A DNA stretch of 51,891 nt. Source: Candidatus Aquidulcis sp. Its GTDB lineage: Bacteria > Chloroflexota > Anaerolineae > Anaerolineales > UBA4823. Shown piece after piece: positions 13,658-51,845 of this stretch. The stretch spans positions 1-51,891 of the forward strand of contig DYIZ01000008.1 in assembly GCA_020723385.1 (NCBI GenBank), read 5' to 3'. Every line of letters starts with the position of its first letter. Position 1 is the first letter of the stretch. A model generated the notes under the pieces. The model worked only from the letters and a program-made list of their open reading frames with translations, did not search any database and was not told the DNA's origin. The position numbers and the translations under genes are program-made.

Positions 13658-13690
13658 AAACTCCCGGAGTTTTGGAAACTCCGGGAGTTT
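13658..13690 (-). terminator. Intrinsic terminator of the BTAD regulator gene
   Basis: A 15-bp perfect stem (13658-13672 with 13676-13690) and a 3-base loop, followed in the minus direction by GTTTTC. It lies 33 bp after the stop codon of the minus-strand regulator. The same core hairpin occurs in opposite orientation at 45575-45611. Confidence 0.7.
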
Positions 13691-40710: not shown

Positions 40711-40721
40711 GAAGGATGGTT

Positions 40722-41489
40722 ATGGCTATTCTCGACGCGTTCAAACTCGACGGCAAAGTTGCCCTGGTCACCGGCGCAGGGCAGGGATTAGGGCAGGGTA
40801 TGGCGCTGGCGCTGGCCGAAGCGGGCGCGGACATCGCCGGTCTCGATCGCATCAACAGCGAGCAGACGGGGAAATTGGTGGCCGATCTCGGTCGCCAGTA
40901 TCACCCGATTGTCTGCGATCTGCGCCAGGTTGGGGCTGCTGATTTCCAGGGAATTGTCGCCGAGATCGTGGCGCAACTGGGGCGGCTCGATATTTTGGTC
41001 AACAACGCCGGCATCATCCGCCGCGCGCCGGCCATCGAGTTCAGCGAGACCGATTGGGATGATGTGCTTCATATCAATCTGCGCTCAGTGTTCTTTCTCT
41101 CGCAGGCCGCAGCCAGGGTGATGATCCCCCAGGGGGGCGGCAAAATCATCAACATCGCTTCGATGCTATCGTTCCAGGGCGGGATCATCGTTCCGGCCTA
41201 TACGGCCGCTAAGAGCGGGGTGGCCGGGATCACGCGCGCCCTGGCCAACGAGTGGGCGAAGCACGGCGTCAACGTGAATGCCATTGCTCCCGGCTACATG
41301 GCGACCGATAACACCGCTGCCCTGCGCGCTGATCCGAAGCGATCCACCGCCATTCTCGACCGCATCCCGGCCGGGCGCTGGGGCGCACCCGGCGATCTGG
41401 CTGGCGCCGTGGTATTTCTGGCATCGGCTGCGTCCGATTACATGCACGGAGCTGTCATCCCGGTAGACGGCGGCTGGCTTACCCGCTGA
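40722..41489 (+). CDS. kduD: 2-deoxy-D-gluconate 3-dehydrogenase / DKII reductase (SDR)
   Basis: 255 residues, short-chain dehydrogenase. Cofactor site 'TGAGQGLG' (residues 17-24), 'LVNNAGIIRR', Ser in 'INIASMLSFQGG', and the catalytic pair in 'PAYTAAKSG' (YxxxK). 'IIRRAPAIEFSETDWDDVLHIN' and 'WGAPGDLAGAVVFLAS' match KduD strongly. It reduces 2,5-diketo-3-deoxygluconate to KDG with NADH. ATG at 40722 has AAGGA upstream; the frame is open further 5' inside the isomerase gene but this is not coding. The last 85 codons are duplicated without any base change at 45094-45351. Confidence 0.92.
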   Translation: MAILDAFKLDGKVALVTGAGQGLGQGMALALAEAGADIAGLDRINSEQTGKLVADLGRQYHPIVCDLRQVGAADFQGIVAEIVAQLGRLDILVNNAGIIRRAPAIEFSETDWDDVLHINLRSVFFLSQAAARVMIPQGGGKIINIASMLSFQGGIIVPAYTAAKSGVAGITRALANEWAKHGVNVNAIAPGYMATDNTAALRADPKRSTAILDRIPAGRWGAPGDLAGAVVFLASAASDYMHGAVIPVDGGWLTR

Positions 41490-41647
41490 AAGAATGACGG
41501 TACGTAGAATCACGAGAGCCGGGTACGCCAGTCCCGGCTCTCTCTAAGGAGGAGAAGAAACGCTTTCTACTTGTCCTTATCTTACCAATAATCGGTTTGG
41601 CTTGCTTGGCGACTGCCCCACAATACCCCGATGATTACCCAACGATC
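41232..41647 (+). repeat. Left copy of 416-bp direct repeat (kduD 3' end plus downstream DNA)
   Basis: Bases 41232-41647 match 45094-45509 at constant offset 3862. Only four differences are seen (41596, 41597, 41609, 41630), all transitions and all in the last 52 bp. It contains the final 85 codons of kduD, a GC hairpin (GAGAGCCGGG...CCCGGCTCTC, about 41516-41541) and a lipoprotein-leader-like frame. Confidence 0.97.
41516..41541 (+). terminator. Hairpin downstream of kduD
   Basis: GAGAGCCGGG and CCCGGCTCTC pair around TACGCCAGT or close to it. No strong T-tract follows; TCTCTAAGGAGG comes next. It is duplicated in the right repeat copy near 45378-45403. Confidence 0.5.
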
Positions 41648-41650
41648 TAG
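41555..41650 (+). pseudogene. Start-less remnant of a lipoprotein gene (left copy)
   Basis: After AAGGAGGAG (41546-41554) the frame reads KKRFLLVLILPIIGLACLAT... and stops at TAG 41648, just past the repeat boundary. The hydrophobic stretch ending GLAC is a lipoprotein signal pattern, but no ATG/GTG/TTG is available at the expected place. The right copy (45417-45563) reads on to RQRSCSASLF...VK. Probably a truncated former gene downstream of kduD. Confidence 0.45.
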
Positions 41651-41772
41651 CCACCTGATAAGTACACTCGCCCCCCAACCGATCGAGAGTTCCTGTTCAC
41701 CGCTGCGTTCAATAACTACTGGTGCGGGTGAGATTGAAAGCATCCTAAATCATCTCGCTCGATCCAAATCTA

Positions 41773-41781
41773 TGCTATACT
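41773..41781 (+). promoter_or_regulatory. Extended -10 promoter of the LuxE/LuxC cassette
   Basis: TGCTATACT (41773-41781) fits TGnTATAAT with one mismatch. No -35 is obvious, as is usual for extended -10 promoters. A start near 41788 would put the transcript's 5' end at the first stem of the leader RNA. Confidence 0.5.
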
Positions 41782-41787
41782 TTCTCC

Positions 41788-41920
41788 TGATCCAATCAAA
41801 CGCTGGGGGACATTGGGATTAAGTCCAGCAGCCAACCTCACGCGATGGGGACGCGTGGCCGAGGGAGTAATAATGTATCCAGGCCGCTCGCGCTTCTGCC
41901 GCGAGCGGTTTGTTGTTTCA
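41788..41920 (+). ncRNA. Candidate structured leader RNA ending in an intrinsic terminator
   Basis: ATCCAAT (41790-41796) can pair with ATTGGGAT (41812-41819), while GCTGG (41802-41806) in that loop can pair with CCAGC (41825-41829), an H-type pseudoknot. CACGCG (41839-41844) and CGCGTG (41852-41857) form a hairpin closed by CCT/AGG. A 9-bp GC stem (41884-41892 with 41900-41908) followed by TTTGTTGTTT is a clear intrinsic terminator. The order promoter, folded domain, terminator, ribosome binding site, genes is that of a riboswitch or attenuator. No known class could be assigned. Confidence 0.5.
41884..41918 (+). terminator. Intrinsic terminator within the cassette leader
   Basis: CCGCTCGCG and CGCGAGCGG form a perfect 9-bp stem with a 7-base loop, followed by TTTGTTGTTT. 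It lies 40 bp before the ribosome binding site of the 25-codon ORF, so it could gate expression of the cassette. Confidence 0.7.
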
Positions 41921-41957
41921 ATCGTCACGATGTTTTGACATTCGGGAGGAGGTAAGT

Positions 41958-42035
41958 ATGATGAGTAAGCTCACTGACCGCTTTTATGGGCTATTTGCTC
42001 AGGAAATAGAAGCCGGAATTGTCGCCGGTATTTAG
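41958..42035 (+). CDS. 25-residue peptide ORF upstream of the LuxE-like gene
   Basis: GGGAGGAGG (41944-41952) precedes ATG-ATG and 23 further codons: MMSKLTDRFYGLFAQEIEAG then IVAGI and TAG. The ribosome binding site is the best in the cassette. The peptide is amphipathic (charged N-terminal half, hydrophobic C-terminus ending GI). The LuxE-like gene starts 3 or 15 bp later and has a weak site of its own, so translation is probably coupled. It could be a leader peptide that only drives coupling, or a small functional partner or substrate of the two enzymes; nothing in the sequence decides. It is too short for most gene finders. Confidence 0.55.
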   Translation: MMSKLTDRFYGLFAQEIEAGIVAGI

Positions 42036-42050
42036 GCGGTGGCGCTACAT

Positions 42051-43463
42051 ATGAAAAATTCATCTGATCCTCTTTCTCCGCTCTACACCCAGCTCATCCG
42101 CCAGGTGCAGGCCTGGGCTATGGCCGAAGGGTATGATCCCAAGCAGGCCGCCCAGTTACGCCGCCAGGCGATATTATCCAACCACGCCCATTACCTGGAG
42201 TGCATTCCCGCCTACCGCCGGTTCGCGCAGGAAGAAGGCATTGGGCCAGAGACGACCATCGAAGCGCTTCAACAGCATTTGATGCTTCCCGATGGTCTGT
42301 TCAAGAGCTACGATCAGACCTGGCTGGACGAGGCCAATTTCACCCGAATGAATACCTGGCTGACGGAAATCTTCCACCAGCCAGTGAGGGTGGATGTTAG
42401 CCAGGTAACGACCATTGACGATTGGATCGCCCGCCTGGCCGAGAACGGCATCCGCTTGGTGTACAGCTCGGGCACCTCAGGCAATTTCTCGTTCGTACCG
42501 CGTGACCAGGCTGCCTGGGATCTGTTCACCATGGCCAGCCGGTGTTACATCGCCCCGTTATTATTACGGCGAAAAGCCGGGACGCTGTGGCAGCGACTGC
42601 TTGCGCGTCCGGCGGTGAAGCTGCTGCCGCCAGCAGTATTCGCCGAGATCAGCCGGCGGATCGGCGTGCATGGGTATGATGGCTTTTTCCTTGATTTCGC
42701 CCACGGCCACACGGGTAATCAGAGCCTTACGCAGGAGCTGGCCGGTCTTTTCCGCAAACATTTCTTCCTGTACGAAACGAACCTGTCACCCACCGTCTTG
42801 CGGCTTTTGCGACGCGGCCCCACGAGCGAGCAGGATCAAGAGCAGTTGCGCCAGCTTCAGGATGTCATCGTCACCCGCAAGGTCGAGAATTATCGCCGCC
42901 TGGCCGAGCGCATCCGCCAGTCCATCTCCGAAGGGCAGAAAATTTTCATCTTTGGCGTGACCCAGCAATACAAGGAATTGTGCGAACTCTTGCTCGAAAG
43001 CAGGCAGCCCCTCCGGCTCAGGGAGGGCAGTTTCGTCCTCTTCGGCGGGGGATGGAAATCGTTCACCGGCGAGAGGATAAGCCGTGAAGCCCTGGTTGAG
43101 ATGATGTCCAGCAGTCTCGGCCTGCCGCCCGATCACATCCTGGAAGGCTACTCGATGACCGAGATCAACGCCTTTATGCTGCGCTGCAACCACGGGCGTT
43201 TTTACATCCCACCCACCATCGAGCCGGTGATCTTCGACGAGGTGCTCAACCCAATCCGCGGAACGGATGTGCGCGGCGTTTTCGGTTTCCAGGACTCCCT
43301 GGCGCAGGCTTACCCAGGCTTTATCATCACCGGTGACGAAGTGCGCTACGTTGAGGAGGATTGTCCCTGCGGTTTGGTGGGGCCGGCGGTGACCGAGATC
43401 GGGCGGGCGCGTGCCCAGGAGGTCAAGGGCTGCGGGGGCATCATGGCCTCCCTGAAAGGGTAA
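42051..43463 (+). CDS. LuxE-like acyl-protein synthetase (ANL superfamily)
   Basis: About 470 residues. LuxE activates a carboxylic acid with ATP to acyl-AMP, then loads it onto its own Cys for transfer to LuxC. Motifs: 'LVYSSGTSGNFSFVPRD' (about 136-152, the AMP-binding P-loop), 'ILEGYSMTEINAF' (about 363-375), 'IITGDEVRYVEEDCPCG' (about 425-441) and 'EIGRARAQEVKGCGG' at the end, where a Cys sits near the C-terminus as in LuxE. A GTG at 42039 is an alternative start. The LuxC-like gene begins 2 bp after the stop, so the pair is co-translated. No LuxAB or LuxD is nearby, so a non-bioluminescent aldehyde-forming role is expected. Confidence 0.88.
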   Translation: MKNSSDPLSPLYTQLIRQVQAWAMAEGYDPKQAAQLRRQAILSNHAHYLECIPAYRRFAQEEGIGPETTIEALQQHLMLPDGLFKSYDQTWLDEANFTRMNTWLTEIFHQPVRVDVSQVTTIDDWIARLAENGIRLVYSSGTSGNFSFVPRDQAAWDLFTMASRCYIAPLLLRRKAGTLWQRLLARPAVKLLPPAVFAEISRRIGVHGYDGFFLDFAHGHTGNQSLTQELAGLFRKHFFLYETNLSPTVLRLLRRGPTSEQDQEQLRQLQDVIVTRKVENYRRLAERIRQSISEGQKIFIFGVTQQYKELCELLLESRQPLRLREGSFVLFGGGWKSFTGERISREALVEMMSSSLGLPPDHILEGYSMTEINAFMLRCNHGRFYIPPTIEPVIFDEVLNPIRGTDVRGVFGFQDSLAQAYPGFIITGDEVRYVEEDCPCGLVGPAVTEIGRARAQEVKGCGGIMASLKG

Positions 43464-43465
43464 CG

Positions 43466-45061
43466 ATGGAAACCATTTGCCAGAAATACCGCTTGCTCTA
43501 CAACGATGAGGGCGTGATTCGCACGCCTTTCCTGGTCAAAGGCCAATTGATCCTGCCCCCCGAGATCAGCCGGAAGCAAGTAGAGTCCGCCTTCGCCGGA
43601 CAGCCGCCGGACATTGGCTACGTCAAATTGCCGAACGCCCAACTGCTGCGTGAACCGGTCATTGACCCGGTCACACTCAGCTACACCGGCGGCTATCAAT
43701 ATCAAATCCTGCCTCCTGTGAACCCGGTCGAACTGATCGAGACGGATTACAACCGGCTGGTCAATGGGCCGTATGCCCTGAGCGTCGAAGATATTCTCGA
43801 TTACCTGCGCCAGATTGCATCTCAGCTTCAATCTGGATGGGCCACTGTCGAGCGTGTGCGACAGTTGAGCGGTCGTACCAGCCAACACCCTGCACCTTAC
43901 CTGGACGGCGCTTTCGCCGGTCTGCTGGCCGGGTTGGATACCAAGGCTGGCCGCAGCATGATTGACCGTGAATTGGCCGCCTGGGGACTGCCGGGCAGCC
44001 GCTTCCTGGAAGATTGGGTGGAAGTCTCCGGCCAGGTCGTTCCTGGGCTGGCGTCGTTCCTGGCGCAGGCGCTGCCCGGAAGCGCAGCGCCCCAACCGGA
44101 AGCCCGGACGCTCATTCGGGCCATGCCCACCCGCCAGTTGCACATCACGGCTGGTAACGCTCCGCAGGTTCCACTCATCTCAGCGTTACGCCTGGTCTTG
44201 ACCAAATCTGCCGGGGTGATCAAATTTCCCTTCGAGGCAACTCTCCCCGGCGCATTGGTGGCGCTGGCAGCATACACCGCTGCGCCCGATCATCCCCTCA
44301 CCCAGAATCTTTCCGCGGTGTACTGGCAGGGCGGCGATGAGGCCGTCGAAAATATCCTTTTGATGCCGGGAACGTTCGACCGGGTGGTGGTGTGGGGCGC
44401 GCCGCAGGCAGTCGCCTCGGTGCAGGCGCGCGCCAGCTACACGAAGATGATCAGCTTCAACCCGCGCTACGGCGTAAGCCTGATTGGCCGGGAGGCGCTC
44501 GCCGACCTGGATGCAGCGGCTTTCCTGGGGGCGACGGATGCCATGATCCTCAACCAGAAGGCTTGTAATGCCTCCCAGATTCACTACCTCGAGGCCAGCC
44601 CTGAGCAGGCGAGCGAGTATACCCGCCGCCTGGCTGCGATCCTTGCTCAGTGGGATGCCGCCGCTCCGCAGTTCGTGCTGCCCACCCAGCGCGGCCAGAT
44701 CAAACGCTTGCGCCGCGGCAAATATGCGCAGGCTGACTGGCAATTGAATACGCGTGAAGGGGAGTTTGCTTCCGGTGTGGTGATGATCCCAGAAGCGTTC
44801 GACGTTTTGGATCACCCGATGTGCCGGTTGATCGTGGTGCGGCCTGTTTCCAGCCTGGAAGATGCCCTCCAATATCTGCACGCTGGGGTATCGGCGGTAG
44901 GCATCTATCCAGAAAGCCGCCGCGTGGCGTTCCGGGATGTTATCGCTGCCCGGGGAGTATCGAGCATCTTCCCGCTCGGCCAGTGTGAGCGCGTTTATCC
45001 CGGTTTCCCGCAGGATGGGATGCTCGTGCTCAGTGAGCTTGTGGATTGGAAGAATGGGTAG
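43466..45061 (+). CDS. LuxC-like acyl-CoA/acyl-protein reductase
   Basis: 531 residues of the LuxC family, which reduces an enzyme-bound acyl thioester to an aldehyde with NADPH. The nucleotide-binding region 'LHITAGNAPQVPLISALRLV' and 'GVIKFPFEATLPGALVALAA' match the family, and the catalytic Cys is Cys367 in 'MILNQKACNASQIHYLE'. The ~130-residue N-terminal extension before the reductase core ('LKGQLILPPEI' region) is common in non-luminous homologues. ATG at 43466 overlaps no other gene and is 2 bp after the LuxE-like stop. 32 bp after its stop the duplicated kduD fragment begins. Substrate (fatty acid, amino acid or peptide C-terminus) is unknown. Confidence 0.88.
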   Translation: METICQKYRLLYNDEGVIRTPFLVKGQLILPPEISRKQVESAFAGQPPDIGYVKLPNAQLLREPVIDPVTLSYTGGYQYQILPPVNPVELIETDYNRLVNGPYALSVEDILDYLRQIASQLQSGWATVERVRQLSGRTSQHPAPYLDGAFAGLLAGLDTKAGRSMIDRELAAWGLPGSRFLEDWVEVSGQVVPGLASFLAQALPGSAAPQPEARTLIRAMPTRQLHITAGNAPQVPLISALRLVLTKSAGVIKFPFEATLPGALVALAAYTAAPDHPLTQNLSAVYWQGGDEAVENILLMPGTFDRVVVWGAPQAVASVQARASYTKMISFNPRYGVSLIGREALADLDAAAFLGATDAMILNQKACNASQIHYLEASPEQASEYTRRLAAILAQWDAAAPQFVLPTQRGQIKRLRRGKYAQADWQLNTREGEFASGVVMIPEAFDVLDHPMCRLIVVRPVSSLEDALQYLHAGVSAVGIYPESRRVAFRDVIAARGVSSIFPLGQCERVYPGFPQDGMLVLSELVDWKNG

Positions 45062-45093: not shown

Positions 45094-45351
45094 ACGCGCG
45101 CCCTGGCCAACGAGTGGGCGAAGCACGGCGTCAACGTGAATGCCATTGCTCCCGGCTACATGGCGACCGATAACACCGCTGCCCTGCGCGCTGATCCGAA
45201 GCGATCCACCGCCATTCTCGACCGCATCCCGGCCGGGCGCTGGGGCGCACCCGGCGATCTGGCTGGCGCCGTGGTATTTCTGGCATCGGCTGCGTCCGAT
45301 TACATGCACGGAGCTGTCATCCCGGTAGACGGCGGCTGGCTTACCCGCTGA
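45094..45351 (+). pseudogene. kduD: Truncated duplicate of kduD (last 85 codons)
   Basis: Encodes TRALANEWAKHGVNVNAIAP to the KduD C-terminus, identical to codons 171-255 of the intact gene. It lacks the cofactor site and the YxxxK catalytic motif, so it cannot be an active reductase. The frame is open back to 45046 inside the LuxC-like gene end, but there is no start codon near the GGAGGGT that precedes it. It is a by-product of the 416-bp duplication. Confidence 0.9.
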
Positions 45352-45509
45352 AAGAATGACGGTACGTAGAATCACGAGAGCCGGGTACGCCAGTCCCGGC
45401 TCTCTCTAAGGAGGAGAAGAAACGCTTTCTACTTGTCCTTATCTTACCAATAATCGGCCTGGCTTGCTTGACGACTGCCCCACAATACCCCAATGATTAC
45501 CCAACGATC
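45094..45509 (+). repeat. Right copy of the 416-bp direct repeat
   Basis: Matches 41232-41647; identical through the kduD part and hairpin, with four transitions in the last 52 bp (45458, 45459, 45471, 45492). Its left edge falls exactly on a kduD codon boundary (ACG) after GGAGGGT; its right edge is followed by unrelated sequence (CGTCAAAGG). Confidence 0.97.
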
Positions 45510-45574: not shown

Positions 45575-45611
45575 AAGACCCCCCGGAGTTTCCAAAACTC
45601 CGGGGGGTCTT
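45575..45611. terminator. 17-bp perfect hairpin sharing its core with the 13.66-kb terminator
   Basis: Bases 45575-45591 pair perfectly with 45595-45611 around a CCA loop, followed by TTAC. The core CGGAGTTTCCAAAACTCCG is the reverse complement of the terminator at 13658-13690. It lies 12 bp after the lipoprotein-remnant stop. Confidence 0.65.
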
Positions 45612-45866: not shown

Positions 45867-48800
45867 ATGCTATCGTCACAAACATCGAATAACCGCAAGT
45901 GGACACGGCTGGCCGCGTTGATGCTGCCAGCCATTATCGTTATTATTGGGATGGCGGCTGGTTTTCAAATCCTTCAAGCCCGCGCCCTGGGCGTGTTGAC
46001 AGTCGAGATCTCAGCCGGTTACAACCTGGTGGTGGACTCGAACGTCAGCTCTCCATCCACCTATGGGCCGGCCGTCGCCACCGTGGCAGGGACATTCTGC
46101 AACAATGGCGACGAAGCTCTCACCGATGTATACGGCTACATCGGCGATTATACCGGCAGCGGCACATACCTCGGAACGCCGGGTACCTATCCCACCCGCT
46201 CATCGGACAGCGGTGGGCCGTTCGACGACCAACACCCTCACTTGGCCGGGTCCGGGACTTACGCCTTCCAGCATCTCGGCGGCGGGCTGGGGACGGACGA
46301 TGCCATCCGCTACATCGGCGCGCTGAATCCCGGCGAATGCCGCGTGCAATACTGGCATTTCAAGTACCCGCAGTGCGAAAACTCGGGCGGCGCGTTCAAT
46401 CCGCCCATGTGCGAAGCTGGTACGGACCCCGTGTGGGGCGTCACCCGCGACCCGAATGATGACTTGTGGCTGACTTTCGACATCTGGGGAGCATCCGCCG
46501 AAGGCTCGACCGGAAGCGTCAGTCATACAATGACCATGCGCAACGAAATTTCGGCCATGGCCAACAAAATCGAGCCGAACCCCCTTGGCTCATGGTTCAA
46601 CACCAACGCGAATACCGTGCGCCCAGGGGATGTCATTACCTCCAACGGCGTCCGCTATGAACTGGGCAATATCAATAAAGGCTTCGATAACGACGGCGAT
46701 TACGTTTACGACTACAACGCCTGGATGCAGCCCATCGGAGATGCCGCATACGACCCAAGCTGCTTCCGGCTGATCCGCACCACTGGGGTTGTGACCGTCT
46801 CGCGCAGCGGCGGCCTGCCCGATATGATCATCCCCTTCACCGACCAGTTGTACTTCACCAACTTGCCGGTCGAAAATAACGGCGCGATTGGCAACGTTTA
46901 CTACACATTCCTGGCCCTCGGGGGGCCGTGTAGCACCACGATGACGCCTTATCAGGAGGTGGCATCCGGCGCAGATAACGAGAAGTTCAACGCCGACTTC
47001 GGCGCAGGCATTCCGCCGGTGGTCAGCAGCTCGCCCGAGGTAACCCTCACCAAGAGCAGCGACCCCAACATCGTCCCGCTCGGCACAACCTATACCTATA
47101 GAATGGTATTTGCAAATCCATCGGACGCCGACGCCGGGCTGTCACTCTCGTCCGGGTTTGGGGTGAGCGCGCCGCTGATGGTGGCCGATACCGTACCCGA
47201 TGGATTGGAATACATCGGCGGGAGCGCCACGTACAGCCTGAGCTTCGCCGGAACGGTGACGATCCGTTACTCGACCGACGGGGGCGCGACGTGGAGCGAG
47301 ACGGATCCCGGCACCCTGGAAAGCACCGCCGCCAATCCCGTTGTCATCCAATGGTGGCTCGACCAGACCCTGCCAGCTCACACCACCGGCGTGGGCAACT
47401 TCGCCGAATTCGACGCCCGCGCCCCCGTCACGTACACCGGCGATCCGGTTGTCGAGAACTGCGCCCAGGCCAGCTTCGGCGACAGCACGCCTTTCACCGA
47501 GAGCTGCGCCCCCACCCTGATCGAGGGAACTCTGACAATTGGCGATTTCGTCTGGCGGGATGAGAACGTCAATGGCCTGCAGGATGACGGCGCGACCGGC
47601 ATCCCTGCCGTTCATGTCTGGCTGTATTGGGACGATGGCGACAGCATACTCGACGCTGACGACATTTTGCTGAAAGAGACCGACACCGATGGCAGCGGCG
47701 CTTACAGCTTTACCGATATGCCAAACGGTACGCATTATCTGGTCGTGGTGGACAAACTGGACAGCAGTCTGCCCCAGGGATACCGCCCAACAACCCCCTA
47801 CCAGGTGATGGTGACATTGAGCGGCTCGAACGTGCTCACCGCCGACTTCGGCTTCGGCCCGGCGCTCAAGACCACAAAAGAACGCATCTCCACCAGCCCG
47901 GTCAACCCCGGGGATTCTGTCACATTCCAAATCGGCCTCGAAAACCTGCTGCCCGGCAGCGGCTCCAGCGTGCGCGCCTGCCAGTATCGCACCTGGTCAA
48001 CCGCTGAGGATGCCGCGCACAGCGGCGCAGCGGGCGGGGGTGCAGCATTCCAGAGTATTTCCAATATTTATGGCCCTCCCAACAACACGTATGCCGTCTC
48101 GCCGTTGGCCAGCAACTCCGAAGTGCTGGCGGTGACCGGCTTCAACCTCGGGACGCATCCGGGCACCATTACCAAAGTCGAGGTGCTGCTGCCAGTGGAT
48201 TTTCTGCCTGCCATCGCCGGGACGCTCCAGGTGAAAGTTCTGCGCGTCTCCGACGGTGTAGAAATGTACACCGGCGCGCTCGAAGATATTTCCACATTCA
48301 CAAAGGCCACCCGCACCTATACGATCTGGCAGACCGGCGATCCGGCCTCAGTGCTCTCTGACTGGGCTGCTTATACCGGCAGCCTGTACAGCATTCAGCT
48401 TACCAGCAAGAAATCGGGCAACCCCTCGGGCGACCTGCTGGTGGATGCCGCCGGGTTCCGCATCACCTCCGACCAGACTGGCTGCGGCAGCCTGGAAGAA
48501 GACATCACCTACCTGCCGCTGACCGACACGTACAACTCGAGCGAATTGCAGTACCTTTCGGCCAGCCCCGCGCCCGACAGCGTTGCGGCGGGCACGCTGA
48601 CCTGGAACAACCTGGGCACGCTGTATGCAGGAGGCACCAAGACCGTCACGGTGAACTTCCGCGCCCTGCGCGCCGCCAACCCCTCCACCAACTACGCTGA
48701 TGTAAACAACGCCGCTTTCGGTGACGGCCGCCTGACCAATGACCCGCCAGTCGTCAACGCGACGGTGGTCATCAATATGGTTGGCTCGATTGGCGACCGC

Positions 48801-51800
48801 GTCTGGTACGATATGAACGGTAACACGGCTGATGACAGCGAGCCGGGCATCAACGGCGTCACGGTGCGCCTGTGCGGCACGCTCAACAACTGCACCGGCG
48901 GCAACCTGCTGGCGACCACCACCACCGACACGACCGGCGCATACAAGTTCTCCGCCCTGGCGAGCGGCACCTATTACGTTTGGGTCACCGACCCCGGCGG
49001 GTACACGCGCACTTACGATCCCCAGGGCGCTGCCGACAGCAAGGCGCAGGTGGTGCTCACGCTTACCGGAGATCCCGCAAACGACAATATCACCACCATT
49101 GACTTCGGTTACGACAACGGCGCCAACGGCGCCGTCAAAGGCTACGTCTGGTACGATGCCAACACCAATGCAACCATGGACACCAACGAAAGCGGCATCT
49201 CTGGCGTAACCGTCGAATTATGCCGCGGCACAGCGCCAACCTGTACGACTTCCCTCGGCACGACCACAACGGCTGCCAATGGCTATTACCAGTTCTCCAC
49301 TGTGCCAGCGAATACCAATTACTTCGTGCGCGTCACTGCCCCGGCCGCCTACCCGGTGCAGACCGCTGATCCGGATGTCGCAGGGGTGTGCGGCGTTGGC
49401 TGCAATAATTACACGGCCAATTTCGATGTCTCGGCCGATCAAACGAAAGGCCCGTATAACTTCGGCTACCGGCAAAATGGTTCATCCACCATCGGCGATA
49501 CGATCTACAAAGACTGGAATGGCGACGGCTCGCAGAATCTCACCACGGAAGAAGGCATCTCCGGCGTCACCGTGCGACTGTACCGCGATCTCGATGGCAG
49601 TGGCAATGTGGACAGCGCCGATTTGCTGATGGGAACGCAGACCACCGGCGCCAGCGGCGATTATCTCTTCACCGGCCTGGAAGCTGCAACTTATATCGTT
49701 CAGGTTGACCGCACGGCCATACCGCCCGCCAGTTACAACCAGACCCAGGATCCCGGGGAGACCGGCGTCTGCTCGGTGTGCGACAGCCAAAGCCTGCGCG
49801 CCGCAGACGGGACCAGCCCCTACCTCAACGAAGATTTCGGCTACAAGCCCACCGGCTTCGGCTCGATTGGCGATTTCGTCTGGCGCGACCTCGATGCGGA
49901 TACGAATCAGGATGCTGGCGAGGCTGGCATCCCCGAGATCACCGTCTGGCTCTATGAAAACAGCAACGGCGGCGGCCTGGATGCAAGCGACGCGCTCATT
50001 GCGACTACTGAAACCGACGCGGATGGGCTGTATCTCTTCGATGGCCTGCCCGCCGGGGATTACATCGTTGTCGTGGACACCGCCGATGGGCAGCTTCCCA
50101 CCGGCTCCAATGGGCTGACCTACGTGCTCAGCACCGCCAACAGCCCGTTGACCGTCAACCTGCCCACCGCCACTACCGACTACACCAGCGCCGATTTCGG
50201 CTTCGCCCCCAGCGGCTTGATCGGCGACTTCGTCTGGCAGGATAACGATGGCGATGGCACGCAGGATACCAGCGAGCCGGGGCTGGCTGCGGTGAGGGTT
50301 TACCTGTGCGCTTCCAGCCCGTGCAACGCCGGAACTGCGCTGCAATACGACGACACCGATTCGAGCGGCAAATACGAGTTCACCGGCCTGGCCGCTGACG
50401 ATTACGTGATCGCAGTAGACTCAGCCACATTGCCCTCCGGCGCCGTGCAAACCTACGACCCAGACGAGCCGAACGGCGATCTGCCCTGCACCGTTTGCGA
50501 CCACCAGGCTGCGATTACCCTCCAGCCGGGGCAGGTCAACCGCACGGTAGACTTCGGCTACCGCCCGCTGGGCGTCATCGGCGACACGCTGTGGATTGAC
50601 GCCAACGACAACGACTCACGCGACGATGGCGAAGCGGGCGTGGCAGGCGTCACCGTCCGGCTGCTAAATGGCGGCGGGAGCGAAATCGCCTCGACGACGA
50701 CCGACTCGGACGGCTACTACTCGTTCGGCAACCTGTCGGGCGGAGATTACACCGTGGTCGTGGTTTCCGCATCTCTGCCAGCGGGTCTCTCTCAGACGTA
50801 TGATCCCGATGGGTCTCTCGATAACCAGTCAACCATCACTCTGCCCGCGGGCGGGTCGAATTTCGGCCTCGATTTTGGGTATCGTTTTGAAGGGGCACGC
50901 ATCATCAGCGGGACTGTCTTCAACGATGAGCGCTACAACGGCGGGCTGTACACCCCCGCCGACGGCGACCAGCCCTATGAAGGGGTGATCGTCTACCTGT
51001 GGAAGGGCAGTGTGTTAGTCGGCACAACGACCACCGATCCTACCGGTTTCTACCAGTTCACCGGTTTAACTGCTGCCGATGATTACGTGGTTTCGACCAA
51101 TAAAAATGCGCCGATCTATAACGAATCTCATCCCACAAACCCCACCCCGAACACGATCCGCTACGTGGATATTTCCGTAAGCGATCAGCCCAACCAGGAC
51201 TTTGGCTTCGGCGGCGTGGATTATGGCGACCTGCCGGGGATGGAGCCGTTCGACTACGCCAACACACTGGACAGTGACAATGGCGCCCGGCACACGATAG
51301 GCGATTTGTTCCTGGGAGCGGGTGTGGATTCTGATCCCGATGGGACAGAAAGCAACACCGCCGAAGGGGATACGCGTGACGACGGTGTGTTACGCGCCTC
51401 CGGGCAGAATTGGATCCCGGACACAGATGTCAACCTGATCGTGGATGTGGAAGGTAGCGGCGGCTACCTGGTCGGCTGGTTCGACTGGAATGGCAACGGC
51501 TCCCTGGCCGACAGCGGCGAGATGGTCGAATTTGGCGCGGTGATCAGCGGGACTCAGTCGCTGCCGCTGCACATCTCGGCCGACTACACTCTCCAGCAGC
51601 CCCTCAACGTGCGTTTCCGCCTGTACGACGGCGATCCCGGCGCGCCAACTACAACCGGGCTGGCGCTCAACGGCGAAGTGGAGGATTACCGCTGGCTGTT
51701 CGGCCCGACGGTGGTCAGGCTCGAAAACCTGGCTGTCAAAGCCGGGTCAGGCTCGACTGTGTTTTGGCTTGGGAGTATTGCGCTCGTTGGGCTGATGACG

Positions 51801-51845
51801 GGCCTGTGTGGCCTGGCAGTGAGCTACAAGCGCCGGGCGAGATAA
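45867..51845 (+). CDS. Giant cell-surface protein with eight SdrD-B-like repeats and a GEVED domain
   Basis: 1992 residues. An N-terminal membrane/signal helix (about 18-42) is followed by a unique ~350-residue region, a DUF11-like segment (about 390-540, 'VTLTKSSDPNIVPLGTTYTY') and the first SdrD-B domain (about 555). A second DUF11-like stretch and ~200 residues lead to repeats 2-8 beginning near 973, 1088, 1207, 1332, 1450, 1569 and 1677. Each repeat opens like 'IGDFVWRDENVNGLQDDG' and has a 'TDxxGxYxFxxL' strand; the Asp-rich loops suggest Ca2+ binding and a rigid stalk. The GEVED domain (about 1855-1945) ends 'GLALNGEVEDYRW'. A C-terminal helix (WLGSIALVGLMTGLCGLAVS) plus YKRRAR anchors it; no LPXTG. 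GGAGG precedes the ATG. An adhesin or stalk role is inferred. Confidence 0.9.
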   Translation: MLSSQTSNNRKWTRLAALMLPAIIVIIGMAAGFQILQARALGVLTVEISAGYNLVVDSNVSSPSTYGPAVATVAGTFCNNGDEALTDVYGYIGDYTGSGTYLGTPGTYPTRSSDSGGPFDDQHPHLAGSGTYAFQHLGGGLGTDDAIRYIGALNPGECRVQYWHFKYPQCENSGGAFNPPMCEAGTDPVWGVTRDPNDDLWLTFDIWGASAEGSTGSVSHTMTMRNEISAMANKIEPNPLGSWFNTNANTVRPGDVITSNGVRYELGNINKGFDNDGDYVYDYNAWMQPIGDAAYDPSCFRLIRTTGVVTVSRSGGLPDMIIPFTDQLYFTNLPVENNGAIGNVYYTFLALGGPCSTTMTPYQEVASGADNEKFNADFGAGIPPVVSSSPEVTLTKSSDPNIVPLGTTYTYRMVFANPSDADAGLSLSSGFGVSAPLMVADTVPDGLEYIGGSATYSLSFAGTVTIRYSTDGGATWSETDPGTLESTAANPVVIQWWLDQTLPAHTTGVGNFAEFDARAPVTYTGDPVVENCAQASFGDSTPFTESCAPTLIEGTLTIGDFVWRDENVNGLQDDGATGIPAVHVWLYWDDGDSILDADDILLKETDTDGSGAYSFTDMPNGTHYLVVVDKLDSSLPQGYRPTTPYQVMVTLSGSNVLTADFGFGPALKTTKERISTSPVNPGDSVTFQIGLENLLPGSGSSVRACQYRTWSTAEDAAHSGAAGGGAAFQSISNIYGPPNNTYAVSPLASNSEVLAVTGFNLGTHPGTITKVEVLLPVDFLPAIAGTLQVKVLRVSDGVEMYTGALEDISTFTKATRTYTIWQTGDPASVLSDWAAYTGSLYSIQLTSKKSGNPSGDLLVDAAGFRITSDQTGCGSLEEDITYLPLTDTYNSSELQYLSASPAPDSVAAGTLTWNNLGTLYAGGTKTVTVNFRALRAANPSTNYADVNNAAFGDGRLTNDPPVVNATVVINMVGSIGDRVWYDMNGNTADDSEPGINGVTVRLCGTLNNCTGGNLLATTTTDTTGAYKFSALASGTYYVWVTDPGGYTRTYDPQGAADSKAQVVLTLTGDPANDNITTIDFGYDNGANGAVKGYVWYDANTNATMDTNESGISGVTVELCRGTAPTCTTSLGTTTTAANGYYQFSTVPANTNYFVRVTAPAAYPVQTADPDVAGVCGVGCNNYTANFDVSADQTKGPYNFGYRQNGSSTIGDTIYKDWNGDGSQNLTTEEGISGVTVRLYRDLDGSGNVDSADLLMGTQTTGASGDYLFTGLEAATYIVQVDRTAIPPASYNQTQDPGETGVCSVCDSQSLRAADGTSPYLNEDFGYKPTGFGSIGDFVWRDLDADTNQDAGEAGIPEITVWLYENSNGGGLDASDALIATTETDADGLYLFDGLPAGDYIVVVDTADGQLPTGSNGLTYVLSTANSPLTVNLPTATTDYTSADFGFAPSGLIGDFVWQDNDGDGTQDTSEPGLAAVRVYLCASSPCNAGTALQYDDTDSSGKYEFTGLAADDYVIAVDSATLPSGAVQTYDPDEPNGDLPCTVCDHQAAITLQPGQVNRTVDFGYRPLGVIGDTLWIDANDNDSRDDGEAGVAGVTVRLLNGGGSEIASTTTDSDGYYSFGNLSGGDYTVVVVSASLPAGLSQTYDPDGSLDNQSTITLPAGGSNFGLDFGYRFEGARIISGTVFNDERYNGGLYTPADGDQPYEGVIVYLWKGSVLVGTTTTDPTGFYQFTGLTAADDYVVSTNKNAPIYNESHPTNPTPNTIRYVDISVSDQPNQDFGFGGVDYGDLPGMEPFDYANTLDSDNGARHTIGDLFLGAGVDSDPDGTESNTAEGDTRDDGVLRASGQNWIPDTDVNLIVDVEGSGGYLVGWFDWNGNGSLADSGEMVEFGAVISGTQSLPLHISADYTLQQPLNVRFRLYDGDPGAPTTTGLALNGEVEDYRWLFGPTVVRLENLAVKAGSGSTVFWLGSIALVGLMTGLCGLAVSYKRRAR

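Follow-up and report, generated by a model that had tools for sequence, protein, structure and literature searches.

A LuxE-LuxC-like gene pair in Chloroflexota as a probable free-standing acid-reductase unit

What a luxE-like and a luxC-like gene do in a genome region without luciferase, and which of the surrounding elements belong to them, are the questions raised by this locus of Candidatus Aquidulcis sp. Herein, we analyzed a window of 51,891 bp, which is the whole stretch of contig DYIZ01000008.1 studied, and the features around the two genes are listed in Table 1. In our reading, which we regard as probable, luxE-luxC is a free-standing two-gene acid-reductase unit with its own promoter that supplies an aldehyde for a non-luciferase use, and the short ORF and the leader upstream lie outside the system.

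Table 1. Features at the luxE-luxC locus (positions in the window)
Feature	Position	Strand	Remarks
kduD (2-dehydro-3-deoxy-D-gluconate 5-dehydrogenase)	40719..41489	+	Complete upstream neighbour; NCBIfam TIGR01832, 384.8 bits vs cut-off 338.85
Direct repeat, left copy	41232..41647	+	416 bp; last 258 bp of kduD and intergenic element
Hairpin element, diverged copy 1	41497..41585	-	62 bits vs 97.2 for the canonical copy
Intrinsic-terminator-like hairpin	41880..41912	+	Upstream of the promoter; 41880-41920 folds at -24.2 kcal/mol
Probable sigma-70-type promoter of luxEC	41935..41962	+	TTGACA-16-TATGAT; -10 box 41957-41962
25-codon ORF	41958..42035	+	Behind GGAGGAGGTAAGT; no evidence for being a gene found
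luxE-like gene	42051..43463	+	470 aa; ANL/PaaK-fold acyl-activating enzyme; SSGTSG motif; C-terminal Cys461 in KGCGGIMAS
luxC-like gene	43466..45061	+	531 aa; acyl reductase; Cys367 in NQKACNASQ
Direct repeat, right copy	45094..45509	+	412/416 identical to left copy (99%); carries truncated kduD
Hairpin element, diverged copy 2	45359..45447	-	62 bits

Predicted chemistry of the LuxE-like and LuxC-like proteins

The first-pass annotation had placed a LuxE-like and a LuxC-like gene 2 bp apart, and Pfam searches confirmed both: the former product was assigned to PF04443 (E 2.8e-21; 76.3 bits vs a gathering score of 24.9) and the latter to PF05893 (E 5.4e-39; 134.6 bits vs 21). The LuxE-like protein also matched PDB 7xc6_E (E 1.1e-12) with the KGC cysteine aligned, and the LuxC-like protein matched 7xc6_A (E 6.3e-16), again with its cysteine aligned. 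Lys-Gly-Cys461 was invariant in all nine rows of the LuxE alignment and Cys367 in all ten rows of the LuxC alignment; we take these residues to be the C-terminal acyl-carrying cysteine and the catalytic cysteine, respectively. The predicted LuxE fold was closest to PaaK1 (2y27_B, E 2.7e-10, TM 0.50), one of the PaaK-type acyl-activating ligases, and the predicted LuxC model was poor (pLDDT 66.8, pTM 0.49).

The families, the 7xc6 matches and the conserved residues support the earlier proposal that the two enzymes convert an acid to an aldehyde. Judged from sequence, the explanation that fits the pair best is a reductase that uses ATP and NAD(P)H and acts on a carboxylic acid, probably a fatty acid. 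The LuxE-like enzyme would activate the acid with ATP and carry the acyl moiety at Cys461, close to its C-terminus, and the LuxC-like enzyme would take this moiety onto Cys367 and reduce it with NAD(P)H to the aldehyde. Since no luciferase lies beside the pair, the product, most likely a fatty aldehyde, would feed another use, such as a fatty alcohol, an ether or a surface lipid. This predicted chemistry follows from the family and the conserved residues; the substrate, cofactor and use given here are those that we infer.

Like the LuxC-LuxE fatty acid reductase of luminous bacteria (7xc6), the pair comprises two enzymes, homologous to the chains of that complex. Unlike it, the window pair has the gene order E-C, has no adjacent LuxA or LuxB and scores far under the NCBIfam equivalog cut-offs (51.3 vs 550 bits for LuxE, 95.2 vs 750 bits for LuxC), so the substrate may differ from that of the true LuxE and LuxC. 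The LuxE-like protein also exceeds the LuxE of 7xc6 (373 aa) in length by ~100 aa. The absence of luciferase noted in the first-pass annotation was borne out, as the genome holds seven luciferase-fold matches, none of them on this contig. Among the six scanned against NCBIfam (all but L109), five fitted F420-type LLM oxidoreductase models, with no LuxA or LuxB model listed for these five; L106 had no NCBIfam match, the wrong strand having probably been taken. No LuxA or LuxB was recognised among the scanned matches. LuxD gave no match in a search without a positive control. A bioluminescence operon of the luxCDABE kind was rejected on the equivalog scores and the lack of LuxA and LuxB on the contig.

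Sequence elements upstream of luxE

The luxE-luxC unit would be transcribed from its own promoter, located behind a terminator. The site at 41935-41962 was the sole 11-of-12 sigma-70-like site on either strand of the 51.9 kb window, and an equally good one appeared in none of 300 shuffled versions of the 150 bp that precede luxE. In six of the 11 homologs, a site scoring 10 of 12 lay 14-51 nt ahead of the luxE position used (shuffle P 0.01-0.083), and the other five (L026, L029, L030, L069, and L070) showed no outstanding promoter in the 150 bp scanned. The luxE position used for L027, L029, and L030 was no start codon.

A folded leader with a terminator had been described in front of the short ORF. 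The terminator hairpin was retained in our analysis, but the rest of the leader folded no better than shuffled sequence. The region 41780-41960 had a fold z of -2.49, which comes mainly from the hairpin, because 41785-41878 alone gave a z of +0.68. A role for 41788-41920 as a leader controlling luxEC, by riboswitch or attenuation, is quite improbable, even though TGCTATACT before 41788 resembles, by eye, an extended -10 and a terminator hairpin comes after it. The promoter stands downstream of that terminator, and the Rfam search of 41480-42100, up to E 5, returned just two chance-level matches and none at the gathering cut-off. The DNA search of the source genome recovered the leader itself alone, and the part before the hairpin was unmatched in 100 relatives, with the first few candidates per genome scored. 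A riboswitch was thus rejected on the Rfam result, the folds with and without the terminator and the DNA searches.

The 25-codon ORF had been linked to the two enzymes as a peptide with the strongest ribosome binding site of the unit. The ORF is present, and GGAGG just before an ATG is uncommon in the window: over both strands, it precedes only six starts of 15-60 aa ORFs, and this ORF accounts for two of them with its two starts. However, its Shine-Dalgarno stretch sits in the spacer of the promoter, and its start codon falls inside the -10 box. Conservation was checked by aligning the peptide locally, with shuffled peptides as controls, to the 300 bp that precede luxE in 11 related loci, and no upstream region (0/11) contained a clearly related ORF. 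In nine of the 11 loci the best match was no better than those of shuffled peptides. The match in L068, reached by 1 of 100 shuffled peptides, was a 9-residue stretch crossing the luxE start; that in L030 was a 13-residue local match (score 26, also reached by 1 of 100) spanning the start of a 29-codon ORF. A short ORF behind a Shine-Dalgarno-like stretch preceded luxE in two of the 11 loci, L026 (55 codons, TTG) and L030 (the 29-codon ORF, ATG), the latter following a promoter-like TTGACA-17-CATAAT seen by eye beyond the 150 bp scanned. In L070, the overlap of luxE with the gene before it leaves no room for an upstream short ORF. When 101 genomes were searched, the source genome alone gave a good match, and the best other E, 0.038 per genome, is what chance would give over 100 genomes.

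That the ORF encodes a genuine peptide on which LuxE-LuxC acts, by modification or activation (to a peptide with a C-terminal aldehyde, for instance), is therefore very unlikely on the absence of a clear relative in all 11 upstream regions, the 101-genome search and the position of the start codon, although the good Shine-Dalgarno stretch, the adjacency to the pair, the short ORFs of L026 and L030 and the weak L030 match speak for it. A RiPP-like peptide-modifying cassette was likewise rejected, as a conserved precursor ORF is absent in the 11 related loci and the ORFs in two of them look unrelated.

Flanking repeats and neighbouring genes

The cassette is enclosed by 416-bp direct repeats, which the first-pass annotation had missed. 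Because the unit stands between them, recombination probably brought it in or rearranged it. In composition there was no signal of a foreign origin, which was rejected on this ground: the tetranucleotide distance of the cassette was 0.160, against a mean of 0.181 (sd 0.032) for the other windows. Repeats can cause mis-joins, and the assembly comprises 239 contigs; an assembly artefact behind the repeats and the order of the cassette is nevertheless unlikely, since the copies differ at four sites, all within 41596-41630, and their flanks are unlike on both sides. It is less probable still that the pair is a relic without function, brought along by a recombination event. The flanking repeats with a truncated kduD copy and the patchy distribution (a close LuxE occurred only in G004 and the source genome among the genomes of the family searched) would fit a relic, but both frames are intact, the invariant residues are kept and the composition resembles the rest of the window.

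Each repeat copy also contains a hairpin element that had been overlooked. It is conserved and covarying, was matched in 122 of the 201 genomes of the order sampled and had no Rfam match; its RNA is probably read from the minus strand.

Related pairs and other settings of LuxE-LuxC

By sequence, the pair belongs to a sparse, divergent LuxE-LuxC subfamily of Chloroflexota. Its LuxC is 49-59% identical to those of the subfamily (11 other pairs examined), and the close LuxC clade of 11 rows, including the window LuxC, has a grouping support of 100/100. Every one of the 11 related loci that hold both has LuxE and LuxC next to each other and in the same order. The Chloroflexota pairs of G048, G377, and G251 are likewise adjacent, but their LuxC proteins are 25-27% identical and fall outside the close clade; an SDR-like gene, named by eye, adjoins the pairs in G377 and G251. 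No relative was found among viral contigs.

In L025 and L068, the next gene found 3' of luxC encodes a heliorhodopsin, on the same strand and ~0.5-0.6 kb away. Heliorhodopsin occurred in eight of the 12 pair-carrying genomes including the source, a count that includes some close relatives and comes without a phylum background rate; in the source genome it lies on a different contig from the pair. On this neighbourhood and co-occurrence, heliorhodopsin could receive an aldehyde cofactor made or recycled by LuxE-LuxC. The pair would form retinal, or an apocarotenoid aldehyde related to it, from the corresponding acid, which would give lineages that are often anaerobic a route to the chromophore independent of oxygen. 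We consider this extremely unlikely. The available parts of the heliorhodopsin papers PMC8612252 and PMC11109279 yielded no luxE or luxC link.

The first-pass annotation had called the set a candidate undescribed system. Its kind is not wholly new, as orphan luxE and luxC are reported in flagellin glycosylation islands in the available parts of PMC7874193 and PMC4875605. These islands likewise hold LuxE and LuxC without luciferase, with a proposed role in fatty acid channelling. They add ACP, FabG, AMP-ligase and glycosyltransferase genes, whereas the identified neighbours of the window pair are kduD and an SdrD-like protein.

With the weak peptide and riboswitch lead removed, and the hairpin element of the repeats set apart as a separate RNA candidate present in most sampled genomes of the order, the acid-reducing LuxE-LuxC machinery appears in genomes of Chloroflexota as a divergent unit that stands alone. 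Given such a unit, luxC and luxE matches in environmental genomes should not be taken as bioluminescence.

The LuxE-LuxC pair, its family and its distribution

The window is contig C55 of its genome (239 contigs, 6.43 Mb). The first-pass annotation had described a LuxE-like and a LuxC-like gene 2 bp apart in it, and the coordinates, Pfam scores, 7xc6 matches and invariant cysteines all agreed with this. LuxE scored 76.3 bits (Pfam cut-off 24.9) and LuxC 134.6 bits (cut-off 21), and each matched one chain of 7xc6, the LuxC-LuxE fatty acid reductase complex of luminous bacteria. The KGC of LuxE and the AC of LuxC aligned with the corresponding 7xc6 cysteines, which we take to be the acyl-carrying and catalytic cysteines, respectively. 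Cys461 and SSGTSG were invariant in the LuxE alignment (9 rows), as was Cys367 in the LuxC alignment (10 rows). The predicted LuxE structure (pLDDT 76.7, pTM 0.79; below 50 for the final 14 residues, including Cys461) matched PaaK-type ligases; the LuxC prediction was of too low quality for use. Both proteins scored far below the NCBIfam thresholds of the luminous enzymes. Judged by their sequences, they are members of the LuxE and LuxC families, not bioluminescence equivalogs.

Coordinates of the cassette and associated features
Feature	Position	Remark
Direct repeat, left copy	41232-41647	holds the 3' end of complete kduD
Hairpin element, left window copy	41497-41585	minus strand
Hairpin	41880-41912	before luxE
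Promoter-like site TTGACA-16-TATGAT	41935-41962	best in 150 bp upstream of luxE
Short ORF	41958-42035	25 codons, before luxE
luxE-like gene	42051-43463	
luxC-like gene	43466-45061	
Direct repeat, right copy	45094-45509	holds truncated kduD
Hairpin element, right window copy	45359-45447	minus strand
Hairpin element, canonical copy	L074:1494-1568	

Scanning genome contigs for LuxC revealed 11 loci, nine close and two actinobacterial (32-33%); the close relatives with names were Chloroflexota. Across the phylum, 20 of 400 genomes contained LuxC at E <= 1e-20, and four of these 20 (the own genome, G418, G432 and G456) had LuxC of the close group. LuxE matched 11/101 genomes (own and relatives) and, apart from the own genome, was close only in G004 (61%). 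All 11 other close loci with both genes (L023, L024, L025-L030 and L068-L070; LuxC identity 49-59%) had them side by side in the gene order of the window; L031 had a partial LuxC only. In the tree, 11 close LuxC rows, the window included, clustered at 100/100 on a long branch. Other neighbours of the pair varied among loci. In L070 (3703-6506), a gene for a GlcF-like CCG/4Fe-4S protein ran at its end 4 bp into luxE, suggesting an operon in that genome; in L025, a Na+-decarboxylase beta subunit and an acetyltransferase lay upstream.

The region upstream of luxE

The pair had also been linked to a 25-residue peptide, a link that the conservation check did not bear out: none of the upstream regions of 11 related pairs had an ORF clearly related to the short ORF. 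Some SD-preceded short ORF occurred in two of them, L026 (55 codons, TTG) and L030 (29 codons, ATG). The best peptide match in L030 covered 13 residues spanning the start of the 29-codon ORF, and that in L068 spanned the luxE start itself; each was equalled by 1/100 shuffled peptides. As for the proposed folded leader, its hairpin stood, and the remaining part did not (folding z +0.68). For this part, Rfam matches were at chance level only, and DNA searches brought up no relative, either in the own genome or in 100 related genomes, for each of which the first few candidates were scored.

The promoter-like site had 11/12 matches (0/300 shuffles as good) and was the only 11/12 site on either strand of the window. 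Its -10 box covers the start codon (ATG) of the short ORF, and a transcript from this putative promoter would therefore begin at ~41969, inside that ORF. A 10/12 site lay shortly before luxE in six of the 11 homologs (shuffle P 0.01 to 0.083), and no site stood out in the other five. The simplest reading, resting on consensus matches, would be the order terminator, putative promoter, luxE-luxC.

Direct repeats and a conserved hairpin element

Two 416-bp direct repeats bracket the cassette. The copies are identical at 412/416 positions, and all four mismatches lie within 41596-41630. This arrangement fits integration of a repeat-carrying circle, or tandem duplication followed by loss; that the repeats are an assembly artefact seems improbable. 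Part of the left copy (41552-41647) can be read as a sequence resembling a lipoprotein signal, KKRFLLVLILPIIGLACLATAPQ; this reading lacks a start codon and is probably due to chance. Two strong hairpins in the window, at 45575-45611 and 13658-13690, have 23 identical bp in common, oppositely oriented, and are perhaps bidirectional terminators. Beyond the right copy, 45867-51845 encodes a protein of 1992 aa with SdrD/SdrC-like repeats and, by eye, a hydrophobic stretch at each end.

Within the repeats lies a hairpin element. With window 41480-42050 as query, ~41505-41560 matched 55/101 genomes, and the canonical form (contig C112 of the own genome) matched 122/201 genomes of the order, the own genome counted in both. 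A strictly filtered model search across the phylum found it in 19/201 genomes, which all belong to the same class; Rfam gave no match. In an alignment of 35 rows (two window copies, 13 of 30 closer loci and 20 hand-picked divergent copies), 8/10 stem pairs showed compensatory changes, and 0/500 shuffles were as good. In plus orientation, all nine unpaired cells were A-C, with no G-U. On the minus strand, with the window copies left out, 99.7% of 329 cells paired, with nine G-U and one unpaired cell; G-U pairs appear solely in this reading. The loop is GGCGT; on the minus strand, TTCTCTTCTTCTCCTCCTT precedes it. This pairing pattern suggests an RNA from the minus strand with CUCCUCCUU ahead of the hairpin, and the element is a candidate for a new small RNA, with a stretch that resembles an anti-Shine-Dalgarno sequence. 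By eye, the next gene on the right resembled an ABC transporter ATPase in 17/30 element loci, and the left-hand gene a 3-methyladenine DNA glycosylase in 8/30.

Heliorhodopsin and the predicted role of the pair

In two related loci, luxC was followed on its own strand by a heliorhodopsin gene (L025:8107-8868 and L068:1-432). Heliorhodopsin was found in 8/12 pair-carrying genomes, not in G418, G577, G580 or G583, and in 0/14 control genomes, which were not picked as Chloroflexota and give no background rate. In the own genome it is on contig C96, away from luxE-luxC. In the genome of L028, a heliorhodopsin fragment lies at the edge of a contig (L146), where the next gene is of the same kind as in L025. 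We regard the association with luxE-luxC as a lead only.

According to passages of two reports, flagellin glycosylation islands of Aeromonas (PMC7874193) and Enterobacteriaceae (PMC4875605) carry orphan luxE/luxC, and a lipid part of the glycan has been suggested for them (PMC7874193, PMC4875605). From the observed family, residues and pairing in the window, we infer activity, cofactor, substrate and use: LuxE-LuxC would be an acid-to-aldehyde reductase, and its substrate is probably fatty.
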